This document shows positions 38,339-45,122 of a stretch of DNA of 64,000 bases, in pieces (positions within the stretch are counted from its first letter, which is position 1; the number at the start of each line of letters is the position of its first letter). The position numbers were made by a program, and so were the translations under genes. The DNA comes from Thomasclavelia ramosa DSM 1402. Lineage in GTDB: Bacteria > Bacillota_I > Bacilli_A > Erysipelotrichales > Coprobacillaceae. The notes beneath the pieces are model-generated. The model saw only the letters and a program-made list of their open reading frames with translations, was not told the DNA's origin and searched no databases. Where the stretch lies: assembly GCF_014131695.1 (NCBI RefSeq), contig NZ_CP036346.1, positions 3,100,001-3,164,000 on the forward strand. The letters are read 5' to 3'.

Positions 38339-39061
38339 TTATTTCCTTTGATATTTACCATATCGAAAAAAGATATATCTATATGCCGCCAGTATCTTTT
38401 GAGGAACTTCAACATGTTCAATATACTGCTTACCATTTGGTCCATAGCCATCTTTATCATCGATGACTCTCTTCATTTCTCCTAATAAAAGTGAAATATA
38501 TCGTTCTTTTGACCATAAGCCCCAAATATTATTTTTAAGTTCAAATCCAATATTCTCAACAACTGGCAAAAAACATCTATAATTATCAAAATTTATATGT
38601 GGAGCATAATGTCTTGCAGTTGCATCGATTCGCCTTTGCATAAGAGGATCATGAACCAATAAAATATTTTTTACTATAATGTCTTCTTTTTTGAGAAGTT
38701 TGAAAGCAAACTGAATATTTTCCCCACAATTAGTAGATTCTTTTTCTAATAAAATAGTATTGTCTACCCCATAATTTTCTTCAATAAGATACTTAAATAA
38801 TTCTGCTTCACTTCTTTTAGTAATATCTTTAATATCATACTTCTCTTTAATCGTATTGATTAAAATATCTGTAGTATGACCTTTTCCTCCAGCAATCATG
38901 AAGTGATAAGCATGCCCTGTTTTGTATAGTTGATAAGCTATTAATCCAGTTTCAGCAATAGCATTTCCTAATACTAAAATCAGATCATACTTTTTCTTCT
39001 CATCATATGTATTTATCGCTAAAAATTGATTAAGAAGATTAAAAGCCTGACTATCTTTCAT
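38339..39061 (-). CDS. YdcF family protein (soluble DUF218)
   Basis: A 240-residue DUF218 protein without membrane helices: LILVLGNAIAETGLIAYQL, FMIAGGKGHTTD (glycine loop), EKESTNCGENIQFAFKLL and VHDPLMQRRIDATARHYAP. E. coli YdcF of this family binds S-adenosylmethionine; no reaction is known. Its start overlaps the phosphofructokinase gene by 11 bases, so it is an operon member of the deoC-transketolase cluster. Perhaps a phosphatase or nucleotide-binding protein for the same pathway; inference only. Confidence 0.85.
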   Translation of the reverse strand: MKDSQAFNLLNQFLAINTYDEKKKYDLILVLGNAIAETGLIAYQLYKTGHAYHFMIAGGKGHTTDILINTIKEKYDIKDITKRSEAELFKYLIEENYGVDNTILLEKESTNCGENIQFAFKLLKKEDIIVKNILLVHDPLMQRRIDATARHYAPHINFDNYRCFLPVVENIGFELKNNIWGLWSKERYISLLLGEMKRVIDDKDGYGPNGKQYIEHVEVPQKILAAYRYIFFRYGKYQRK

Positions 39062-40244
39062 TTAATTGCAAATATTGAGGAAGCTCAATTTGTCCACTTT
39101 TATATATTAAAGGAACCACATAATCAATATATTCTTTTTTAATCTTCTTATTCTTTTCATCAATCCATTCTAATGGAAATGGTTTAACATGATTTGCTAC
39201 TTTATGAATATCAACGTGACTTAATAAAAATTCATTTCTATTTTTTGAAATTGTGACCATAATCCCCGTTCGTTTATCCAACGCACAATTTATTGCATAA
39301 CTACCAATACGTAAAGCATTTTCTATGTCTATGTAACTGGCTAAATGTGCTGCACAACGCTGAAGGGTACTTAACTGAATGGCCCGTACTTTACAGCCAA
39401 GATGGTCACCGATAAGTTTTTTTAGATAATTTGAACAGCCATTATTTGATAAATGACCAAATGCATCTTTTTGAATCCCACTATCTAGTGATACACACAT
39501 TCCATATTGATCTCGAATACCTTCAGATACAGCAATAATACAGTGATCCTTCTTTTTTAATTTATCTTTGATCTGTTCAAGAAAGTCATTTTCATCAAAA
39601 ATGTTTTCCGGCATATAAATTAAATCGATAGAATCAGGATAGACTTCATTAACAAGTTGTGCTGAAGCTGTTAACCAGCCAGCATCTCGCCCCATAATTT
39701 CTACGATCGTTACTGATTTTATTGGATATATAACACTGTCAAAAGCAATTTCACATAATGAGGTAGCAACATAATGACAGGCAGAAGGGTATCCTGGTGT
39801 ATAATCAATATTCATAAGATCATTGTCAATTGTTTTAGGGATACCAATAAAGTTGATTGGGCAATTACATATTTTTGCATAAGTACTTAATTTTTCAATA
39901 GTATCCATTGAATCATTACCACCAATATAAAAGAAGTCAGTAATTTCATACTTATTTAATATTGTAATTATTCTTTGCTTAATTGATTGATCCTTTTCGA
40001 AAATCTTATATCTACATGAGCCTAAATACATTGCTGGTGTATGAATCAACTTAAACAAATTCTTCTGATCTTTAAAACTACTTAAATCAACCATCTTTTC
40101 ATCTAACAATCCATCTATTCCATTAATCATTCCATATATTTTCTCATAATCTGCTTTCAAAGCTCCTTGAATGACCCCGGCTAATGTTGCATTAATAACT
40201 ACTGTCGGCCCACCAGATTGTCCGATTATACATTTTCTCGACAT
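39051..40244 (-). CDS. Pyrophosphate-type 6-phosphofructokinase
   Basis: A 397-residue phosphofructokinase with N-terminal GQSGGPTVVINA, IGGNDSMDT and PKTIDNDLMNID motifs, and MGRDAGWLTA. The Asp in GGND (fourth place) together with Lys in PKTIDND is the PPi-dependent signature, so it probably uses pyrophosphate and works reversibly; such enzymes may also act on sedoheptulose 7-phosphate, which would fit the adjacent transketolase. ATG 40244 follows GGGG by 9 bases; an ATG three codons earlier overlaps the ribosome site. Lies in the deoR cluster. Confidence 0.9.
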   Translation of the reverse strand: MSRKCIIGQSGGPTVVINATLAGVIQGALKADYEKIYGMINGIDGLLDEKMVDLSSFKDQKNLFKLIHTPAMYLGSCRYKIFEKDQSIKQRIITILNKYEITDFFYIGGNDSMDTIEKLSTYAKICNCPINFIGIPKTIDNDLMNIDYTPGYPSACHYVATSLCEIAFDSVIYPIKSVTIVEIMGRDAGWLTASAQLVNEVYPDSIDLIYMPENIFDENDFLEQIKDKLKKKDHCIIAVSEGIRDQYGMCVSLDSGIQKDAFGHLSNNGCSNYLKKLIGDHLGCKVRAIQLSTLQRCAAHLASYIDIENALRIGSYAINCALDKRTGIMVTISKNRNEFLLSHVDIHKVANHVKPFPLEWIDEKNKKIKKEYIDYVVPLIYKSGQIELPQYLQLNER

Positions 40245-40266
40245 GATCTTCATCCCCTTATCTGCT

Positions 40267-41688
40267 TTAAATATTTTCTAATTCCTCACCATTTGATTGA
40301 ATAACTTTTTTATACCAGTTAAATGATTTTTTCTTTGATCTTTTTAATGTTCCCTTTCCTTCATCATCTCGATCAACATATATAAACCCATAACGTTTTG
40401 TCATTTGACCTTCAGTTGCTGAAATTACATCTATTGGGCCCCAGGTTAAGTAACCCATCAAATCAATTCCATCATCTAGTGCTAGTTTTACTTGTTCAAT
40501 ATGAGCTTTTAAATATTCTATTCTATAATCATCTTTAATTGAGCCATCTGTTTCTACAACATCAGGTGCTCCTAAACCATTTTCAACAATAAATAATGGT
40601 TTATGAAATCTTTCTTGTAAGAAATTCAATGTAATTCTTATTCCTTGAGGATCAATGATCCATCCCCATTGTGATGCATCACAATAAGGATTTTGTAACT
40701 TGCCATAGTTATTGATCTTTAATCTGTGATCTGTCGTTACTACTTTACTTGCATAATAACTGAAAGCAACAAAGTCAACTGTATTATTTTTTAGAATCTC
40801 CTCATCATCTTTTTCCATATGTATAGTGATTCCTTCTTTTTTCATTTTAGCTTTCATATGATATGGATATTCTCCAAAAACTTGAACATCTGTCAACATT
40901 AGTTCCTTATTATTTTCCTCAAAAGCTTTTAATACATCTGATGGGTGACAAGTATACGGATAGACGACCCCACCTGCAATCATACATCCAACTTGATTAT
41001 TTTTATCAATCTCATGTCCTATTTTTGTTGCTAATGCTGAAGCGAGTAACTGATGATGCATTGCCTGATACTTAATTTGTTCAATATTATCACCTTTTCT
41101 ATATAATAAACCTAGGGTTGAATAGGGCTGAAATAAACCAACATTGATTTCACAAAAAGTTAACCATTTTGTTACCTTTCCTTTATAACGGGTCATTAAC
41201 ATACGGACTAGTCGGCAGTAGAAATCGATCATTTTTCGATTAGCCCAGCCACCATAATGCTTTGCTAAATACAACGGTACATTAAAATGATTAAGTGTTA
41301 TTAAAGGTTGAATTCCATGTTTAAGTAATTCATCTATTAAACTATCATAGTATGTTAGGCCTTTTTCATTTGGTTGTTCTTCATCTCCATACGGAAATAA
41401 ACGCGTCCAGTTAACTGACAAACGTAAACATTTGAAACCCATCTCTCCAAACAAAGCAATATCCTCTTTGTAACGATGGTAAAAATCGATTGCAATTCTA
41501 TTTGGACAATACTCAATATTTTCATTCATATAATCAAGTGGTGAAGCATATGCTGCCTGCCTTGCTTCTAATCCGCCCGGAATTACATCCATTAAATCTA
41601 GACCTCTTCCATCTGCATCAAAAGCACCTTCGCATTGATTAGCTGCTAAACTGCCACCCCATAAAAAATCATCTTTAAACTTTGTCAT
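40267..41688 (-). CDS. Glycoside hydrolase family 1, 6-phospho-beta-glucosidase type
   Basis: A 473-residue GH1 enzyme that would cleave beta-glucoside 6-phosphates in the cytoplasm. N-terminal [16 protein letters not shown] and nucleophile [11 protein letters not shown] near residue 365 are standard, and the [13 protein letters not shown] tail is the phosphate-recognition signature of 6-phospho enzymes. The acid/base motif reads TFCEIN where GH1 almost always has TFNEI/P: the Asn that contacts the sugar 2-OH is Cys. No PTS transporter gene accompanies it here. Gap to the transketolase gene is 2 bases. Confidence 0.9.
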
Positions 41689-41690
41689 TT

Positions 41691-44178: not shown

Positions 44179-44205
44179 TTTTCTAATAGATAACTATTTA
44201 TTTTT

Positions 44206-44303
44206 GTTTGTTTTTGTTCGTTATCTTTCCTCCTTAATTAAAAAATAACACATAAACAAACATTTGTAAACATATATTTGTTTATTTTTGTTCGTTTTTG
44301 TTT
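44206..44303 (-). promoter_or_regulatory. Direct repeats before deoC, probable DeoR-type operators
   Basis: Two long similar copies, plus-strand TTTGTTTGTTTTTGTTCGTT (about 44206-44222) and TTTGTTTATTTTTGTTCGTT (44278-44297), differing at one base, with a partial third AACAAACATTTGTAAAC between. Repeated TGTTT/TTCGTT words are typical of DeoR-family sites. One copy lies between the strong ribosome site and the deoC start codon. Confidence 0.75.
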
Positions 44304-44351
44304 TTTTGTATAAAAAAACATATCAAACAAACTAGTTCAATATGTCTTTAT

Positions 44352-45122
44352 TTAATCTTCATTTGTTAAAATATAATTTACTGGAATATCATCAATATTC
44401 ATATGAGCATCCTTATTACAGATAACTGCATCAAAATCATCACTGCTAATAAAGCTACAAAAACCTTTAACACTTAACTTTGATGAATCAATTAATAAAT
44501 ACTTCTTTACTGCTAAGTCCATTGCTTTTTGTTTTACTGCCATTGTATCCATTTCAGCTGTATAGACTAATTTTCTATCTATATCTATCCCGGCACAACT
44601 TAAGAAAGCATAATCAAAATTAAACTTTTCTAAGTCACTTAAAGTAATTGGACCAACTGACATATTGTATTCTGGAATATATTTACCACCAATCATAAAT
44701 AATTCAGATTCAAAATCATTAAATCCATTTGCAATCAAGGTACTATGTGTTACTATTTTAACATTTTTTCCTTTTATATATTTTAGCATCGGTACAATAC
44801 TTGTTCCACCATCTAAAAATATACAATCTCCATCCCTGATAAATGATGCTGCTTTTTTACATACTAAATCTTTCTCTTTATTATTAGTAATTCTTTCGCT
44901 CATTTGTTTTTCATCTTTATTTGAAAGAATTGTTTTTTGCTCAATACTTTTTGCTCCGCCATGAACCCTTATCAGCAGTCCTTGTTTTTCAAGTTCTTCA
45001 CAATCTCTTCTTATCGTTGTTTCTGTTACATCTAAGTTTTCAGAAAGTTCTTTTGTTGAAATAAACCCACGTTCATTAACTGTATTTACTATTCTTAAAA
45101 ACCTCTCACTTGCAATCATCAT
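44352..45122 (-). CDS. DeoR-family transcriptional regulator
   Basis: A 256-residue DeoR-type sugar-phosphate repressor: N-terminal helix-turn-helix FISTKELSENLDVTETTIRRD near residue 22 and the sensor domain with IFLDGGTSIVPML, IGGKYIPEYNMSVGP, and LLIDSSKLSVKGF. GAGG is 5 bases before ATG 45122 (8 before a second ATG at 45119). Upstream of deoC on the same strand; the repeats between suggest it represses deoC and the following genes in the absence of a phosphorylated sugar. Confidence 0.9.
   Translation of the reverse strand: MMIASERFLRIVNTVNERGFISTKELSENLDVTETTIRRDCEELEKQGLLIRVHGGAKSIEQKTILSNKDEKQMSERITNNKEKDLVCKKAASFIRDGDCIFLDGGTSIVPMLKYIKGKNVKIVTHSTLIANGFNDFESELFMIGGKYIPEYNMSVGPITLSDLEKFNFDYAFLSCAGIDIDRKLVYTAEMDTMAVKQKAMDLAVKKYLLIDSSKLSVKGFCSFISSDDFDAVICNKDAHMNIDDIPVNYILTNED

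Follow-up and report, generated by a model that had tools for sequence, protein, structure and literature searches.

The window analysed here comprises 64,000 nucleotides (nt) of Thomasclavelia ramosa DSM 1402 (bases 3100001-3164000 of a single-contig genome of 3.25 Mb), and its minus strand carries, between positions 38339 and 45128, seven consecutive genes encoding a DeoR-family repressor (deoR), a DeoC-family aldolase (deoC), the two halves of a split transketolase (tktN and tktC), a hydrolase of glycoside hydrolase family 1 (GH1), a pyrophosphate (PPi)-type phosphofructokinase (PFK) and a YdcF protein (ydcF) (Table 1). The identities given to these genes by a first-pass annotation are all confirmed by matches in profile and structure databases, and the named relatives of the window genes belong for the most part to Erysipelotrichaceae. 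That annotation had described the genes as overlapping or 1-2 bases apart, which holds for three of the six junctions (tktN-tktC, 1 base; tktC-GH1, 2; PFK-ydcF, -11) and not for the others (deoR-deoC, 173 bases; deoC-tktN, 51; GH1-PFK, 13). As it had also stated, the cluster ends at one terminator-like hairpin and is not a classic deo operon, a profile search having found none of the partners deoA, deoB, deoD or pdp within 36.3-46.5 kb of the window.

Table 1. Features of the operon (positions within the window).
Feature	Position	Strand	Basis and details
deoR, DeoR/GlpR-family repressor	44352..45128	-	PF00455, PF08220
Putative DeoR operator repeats AACGAACAAAAA(C/T)AAACA	44195..44296	-	Genome site search; copies at 44205-44222 and 44279-44296, weaker copy at 44195-44212
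deoC split ribosome-binding site (predicted)	44179..44235	-	Shine-Dalgarno AAGGAGG 44235-44229; stem AGATAAC 44226-44220 / GTTATCT 44194-44188; 25-nt loop; 9 nt to ATG at 44178
deoC, DeoC-family class I aldolase, loop-insertion clade (KGSGCIR ... DRMGVGYRS)	43468..44178	-	TIGR00126, alignment, tree
tktN, N-terminal half of split transketolase	42616..43416	-	Best match 6yak, N-terminal component of split-chain transketolase
tktC, C-terminal half of split transketolase	41691..42614	-	Best match 6yaj/6yak
GH1 6-phospho-beta-glucosidase-like hydrolase, Cys179 (codon 41152-41154) for Asn before acid/base Glu	40267..41688	-	Profiles, alignment
PPi-type phosphofructokinase (GGNDS, PKTIDND)	39051..40253	-	PRK14072; best matches 3k2q, 3hno
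ydcF, YdcF/DUF218 protein	38339..39061	-	PF02698; matches E. coli YdcF 3ca8
Terminator-like hairpin 3' of ydcF	38295..38318	-	Sequence

The same gene order is seen in two further genera of the family, as far as GH1 in one and PFK in the other. In the first (genome G021), deoR-deoC-tktN-tktC-GH1 occupy a contig that starts with the end of deoR and stops at GH1, the products being 82% (DeoC), 66% (TktN), 69% (TktC) and 72% (GH1) identical to those of the window. In the other (G009), the order deoR-deoC-tktN-tktC-GH1-PFK is interrupted by a contig break inside tktC: the first contig holds deoR (78%), deoC (71%), tktN (69%) and tktC to residue 255, and the second holds tktC residues 255-301, then GH1, then PFK (61%). 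The GH1 position is occupied in these two genomes by two different lineages with a Cys at the site discussed below, which share 72% and 47% identity with the GH1 of the window. No ydcF lies 3' of PFK in G009; YdcF proteins adjoin relatives of the window deoC in loci L061 and L074. The recurrence of this order across genera is more than chance. The view of the genes as a single catabolic cluster, put forward in the first-pass annotation, thus stands, since a check for scattering in relatives found the order kept in both genera. Eight genomes of the same genus as the window lack the operon: close homologues of the transketolase half, the GH1 and the PFK are missing there, and DeoC finds matches no stronger than those of a paralogue. 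Judged by its sequence, the operon is real and conserved, and it brings known enzyme families into a new combination.

The hydrolase resembles GH1 6-phospho-beta-glucosidases (6wgd, 3pn8, BglA 2xhy), with a full-length match of 576 bits to 6wgd, and passes the cut-offs of two subfamily profiles (PRK09593, 655 bits, cut-off 639; PRK09852, 623.4 bits, cut-off 623). The Ser and Ala residues place it by sequence with the gluco type (PMC10360150). It retains the VENG nucleophile, the acid/base Glu and the K-R-Y residues of the 6-phosphate site, where Thr stands for Ser, a change conservative enough for the Ser/Lys/Tyr signature to be counted as present. However, the acid/base Glu lies in a TFCEIN motif, so that the Asn-Glu pair of 6-phospho-beta-glucosidases is lost, and the protein also differs from the Asn-bearing group at Leu414 and Glu426. 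In the sample compared, the Asn is kept in 41 of 41 related 6-phospho-type GH1 sequences with an intact motif. Few residues of clan GH-A are as strongly conserved as this Asn, which makes contact with the sugar 2-hydroxyl at subsite -1.

Altered GH1 genes, with Cys or Thr at this position, number 19 after removal of copies, and 16 of them have an aldolase gene of the same loop-insertion type as the window deoC within 1.8 kb on the same strand, versus 4 of 67 GH1 genes with Asn (Fisher p ~4e-11); the operons of these four exceptions each hold an altered GH1 too. Some of the altered genes were drawn from aldolase-centred searches, which biases the count toward association; a GH1-based search that made no use of the aldolase gave 13 matches, 10 of which nevertheless show the aldolase in view, and an eleventh is the G009 GH1, from an operon divided by a contig break. 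The GH1 tree requires the Asn to have been lost at least twice. Such a natural loss, repeated and nearly always found beside one aldolase clade, may help to trace a gut substrate and to understand how C2 is recognised by glycosidases.

The aldolase itself scores 183.4 bits against the TIGR00126 equivalog (cut-off 117.3), and shares with deoxyribose-phosphate aldolase (DERA, EC 4.1.2.4; e.g., 4xbk) the fold family, the Schiff-base Lys in FVKTSTGF, the second active-site Lys (IKGSGC) and the Asp and Cys positions. Unlike DERA, it lacks the canonical phosphate loop (AAGG-VR, RIGTSS), carrying instead K-GSGC-IR, RMGVGYRS and a two-residue insertion. The altered phosphate site (K-GSGC-IR for K-AAGG-VR, RMGVGY(K/R)S for RIGTSS, and the insertion) is found in 75 of 78 close relatives, and in a tree of 105 sequences the insertion clade and canonical DeoC are split with 100/100 support. 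Two further deoC genes of the same genome are both canonical at this site. The whole clade carries the annotation deoxyribose-phosphate aldolase, and many genome annotations could be put right once its true substrate is found.

Insertion-type deoC genes have widely varying neighbours, among them transketolases, glycyl radical enzymes, sugar ATP-binding cassette (ABC) transporters accompanied by PfkB kinases, and Gfo/Idh together with IolE-like proteins. L037 (10780-13215) and 16 other loci encode a glycyl radical enzyme of the PFL2 type (~805 amino acids), usually directly 3' of deoC; its nearest named model is PflD, with a score far under the cut-off. In rumen Selenomonadaceae (L095, 9773-11377; also L094, L097, L101 and L088), the gene lies inside a ribosomal-protein operon, between rpmC (L29) and rpsQ (S17), which rules out that these loci are microcompartments, and in the three genomes searched this ribosomal-operon insertion type is the sole DeoC found. 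In sister clusters of the order (L179, 4041-9140; L245-L248), deoC and a GH1 of the Cys type occur together with EIIB of a phosphotransferase system (PTS) and with genes resembling RPE, RpiB, cupins, Gfo/Idh or ManA. In Faecalicoccus (L069, 1830-8315), shikimate genes (aroB, aroC, aroA, tyrA-like) lie downstream of deoC and a Thr-type GH1 in the same orientation, maybe a chance adjacency; it is weak evidence for erythrose 4-phosphate, the product considered below, because the start given for aroB probably lies too far upstream, which would make the real gap wider.

The first-pass annotation had missed the changes in the GH1 and in the aldolase loop, both of which point to the substrate and now support as probable its suggestion of a modified glycoside. 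These two correlated active-site changes make a novel substrate likely, as far as sequence comparison can tell, and the gene set suggests that the operon may feed on a sugar compound not described before, through a possible new breakdown route. Since a hydrolase that reads the 2-hydroxyl and an aldolase of 2-deoxy-sugar phosphates have both changed, it is tentatively proposed, with somewhat less than even confidence, that this DeoR-repressed operon serves the catabolism of a 6-phospho-beta-glycoside whose sugar lacks a normal 2-hydroxyl. What the sequences contribute to this model is the gene set, its conserved order, the GH1 and aldolase changes and their association.

Thus, a transporter encoded elsewhere in the genome, probably a PTS, would deliver the glycoside phosphorylated at C6. 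The GH1, which retains its phosphate pocket and has Cys for the Asn that binds the 2-hydroxyl, would free a sugar 6-phosphate presumably devoid of that hydroxyl, which the loop-insertion aldolase would then split in a retro-aldol reaction. Taking into account the 6-phospho-hexose pocket of the GH1, 2-deoxyglucose 6-phosphate would be the simplest product, a specific version of the proposal that we regard as rather doubtful. If the sugar were a 2-deoxy-gluco-hexose, the aldolase products would be acetaldehyde and D-erythrose 4-phosphate, and the operon transketolase and PPi-PFK, together with the fructose bisphosphate aldolase of the cell, could return the latter to glycolysis. The DERA of L. 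plantarum accepts D-erythrose (PMC6244999). The complete proposal, an undescribed route in which Asn-loss GH1s would release 2-deoxy-hexose 6-phosphate, the DeoC clade would convert it to acetaldehyde and erythrose 4-phosphate, and a dedicated transketolase and PPi-PFK would lead to glycolysis, with a conserved split ribosome-binding site, is doubtful when all its parts are asked to hold at once.

Several observations weigh against a glycoside without a normal 2-hydroxyl. We know of no natural 2-deoxy-glucoside with a free C6 that would be a common gut substrate. No transporter is tied to the operon by a genome-wide operator search for co-regulated transporters, which returned only the operon's own exact sites, the best other site (one mismatch) lying inside an ABC-transporter gene. 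For two altered GH1s no aldolase is seen nearby (G214, with none within 15 kb, and G009 C34, where the contig ends), and the RpiB-, RPE-, Gfo/Idh- and ManA-like genes of the sister clusters are not needed by a 2-deoxyhexose route. In five rumen Selenomonadaceae drafts the insertion-type DeoC is the only DeoC detected and may be an ordinary deoxyribose-phosphate aldolase there. Finally, the genome encodes elsewhere two full-length transketolases, four TAL_FSA (transaldolase/fructose-6-phosphate aldolase) matches over the cut-off and five other PFKs.

Taking into account this last group of genes, the transketolase and PFK of the operon are dedicated extra copies; the PPi-PFK as a substitute for a missing transaldolase is ruled out, and the sedoheptulose 7-phosphate route advanced in the first-pass annotation is hypothetical here. 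PPi-PFKs of clostridia can convert sedoheptulose 7-phosphate, and, as in the sedoheptulose bisphosphate pathway of cellulolytic clostridia (PMC7029132), PPi-PFK and transketolase could here interconvert sedoheptulose 7-phosphate and sedoheptulose bisphosphate. However, absence of transaldolase marks that pathway, whereas transaldolase-family genes are present here, and the route would be an added branch. The PFK scores 439 bits against PRK14072 (cut-off 273), and its GGNDS and PKTIDND motifs agree with the marks of PPi-type enzymes, an Asp at the ATP alpha-phosphate site (GGDD-type) and the Lys of PKTIDND (PMC12203962). Among 315 genomes of the order, this PFK lineage is found only in the window genome and G009, in both cases in this operon. 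Another of the six PFK genes of the genome straddles the left edge of the window (G000:C1:3099710-3100615).

Both transketolase halves find their top structural match in the split-chain transketolase of Carboxydothermus hydrogenoformans (6yaj, 6yak), which has the same two-gene split, the window pair differing in being an extra copy inside a glycoside operon. A transketolase also lies directly downstream of an insertion-type aldolase in L039 and L102, where it is split; in L107 and L110 the copy that comes after the aldolase is full-length. At 53% identity, the TktN of L039/L102 is further from that of the window than are many housekeeping copies of the order (56-60%), a sign of separate recruitment.

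Other substrates have to be weighed. If it were 2-deoxyribose 5-phosphate, the loop-insertion DeoC would be a true DERA whose phosphate loop merely differs, and the altered GH1s would free 2-deoxyribosyl groups (plain or 5-phosphorylated), yielding glyceraldehyde 3-phosphate and acetaldehyde. The score over the TIGR00126 equivalog cut-off agrees with this, as do several genomes with insertion-type DeoC only, and the L042/L046 group, in which a Thr-type GH1 is accompanied by an ABC transporter, a PfkB-like kinase and an insertion-type DeoC. Nevertheless, the window GH1 retains the 6-phospho-hexoside pocket, glyceraldehyde 3-phosphate makes a dedicated transketolase or PFK unnecessary, and two canonical DeoCs are already present in the genome, so this explanation is considered unlikely. 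We also find it improbable that this is an ordinary 6-phospho-beta-glucoside operon, in which the GH1 would release glucose 6-phosphate, the PPi-PFK and transketolase would be extra copies for central metabolism, and tolerated drift would account for the aldolase loop and for the Cys in place of Asn. Although the GH1 exceeds two 6-phospho-beta-glucosidase cut-offs and the remaining parts are all common enzymes, glucose 6-phosphate requires no DeoC-family aldolase, and an Asn present in all 41 related enzymes has been lost at least twice, nearly always next to the same aldolase clade.

The sugar could otherwise differ at C2 (manno, 2-amino, 2-keto or 2-O-substituted), the aldolase acting later on a derived sugar phosphate, as might be suggested by sister clusters in which this GH1/aldolase pair has ManA-, RpiB-, RPE/AlsE- and Gfo/Idh-like neighbours. 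This is very unlikely for the window operon, which has none of these partners, and the Asn is kept in known GH1 and other clan GH-A beta-mannosidases. Fructose-6-phosphate aldolase acts after PflD/YbiW glycyl radical enzymes on 1-deoxy-fructose 6-phosphate, and a comparable cleavage of this or a related ketose by the DeoC-family aldolase would fit the PFL2-type glycyl radical enzyme found in 17 of 80 loci of the clade, usually next to deoC. However, that enzyme reaches 543 bits versus 1109 for the PflD model, the window operon is without one, and the altered GH1 would be left unexplained, making this possibility highly improbable.

The leader of deoC has an unusual layout. The Shine-Dalgarno (SD) hexamer lies 51 nt from the ATG, of which 12 nt remain outside a hairpin whose stem begins 2-3 nt after the SD and ends 9 nt before the start codon. 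Eleven distinct deoC loci share this layout (the window, L034, L043, L173, L042, L041, L046, L050, L037, L079 and L103); they belong to several Firmicutes families, are mostly deoR-linked, and have stem sequences that differ and loops of 3-25 nt. Stems of at least 7 pairs occur in 10 of 90 deoC loci versus none of 556 control genes (p ~2e-9), a count that is the fair test, since the scan selected complementary arms and the covariation of the pairs is partly a product of its construction. Single-sequence folding is favourable and not extreme (z -2.8 for the window, -3.5 for L043, weaker for others, the folded stretch in L042 and L103 not covering the entire stem), and the hairpin matched no Rfam family over its cut-off. 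A role of this inverted repeat as DeoR operator is less likely, because the arms and the loop length vary while the pairing and the position relative to SD and ATG are kept.

In T4 genes 25 and 38, an intervening stem brings a distant SD to the start codon (PMC3014915). The deoC leader has the elements of such a split ribosome-binding site, i.e., a distant SD, a stem between it and the start codon, and a short residual spacing, and is predicted to be one; it differs from the phage sites in belonging to a bacterial gene, with a linear SD-AUG distance of ~30-55 nt, and in its conservation over several families of Firmicutes. It would extend to bacterial genes an arrangement described in T-even phages (PMC3014915).

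Regarding the repressor gene, relatives of DeoR begin at MIASERF, which corresponds to the ATG at 45119. Besides the G009 homologue next to deoC, those of other deoC loci are 67-79% identical. The deoR-deoC interval holds three copies of the A-rich repeat regarded as the putative operator; its two exact copies are the sole exact sites in the genome, and a similar repeat is present 5' of deoC in G009. Downstream of the operon (window positions 37091-38204), two genes of the DJ-1/PfpI family are arranged in tandem with overlapping ends, followed by an RpiR-type regulator.

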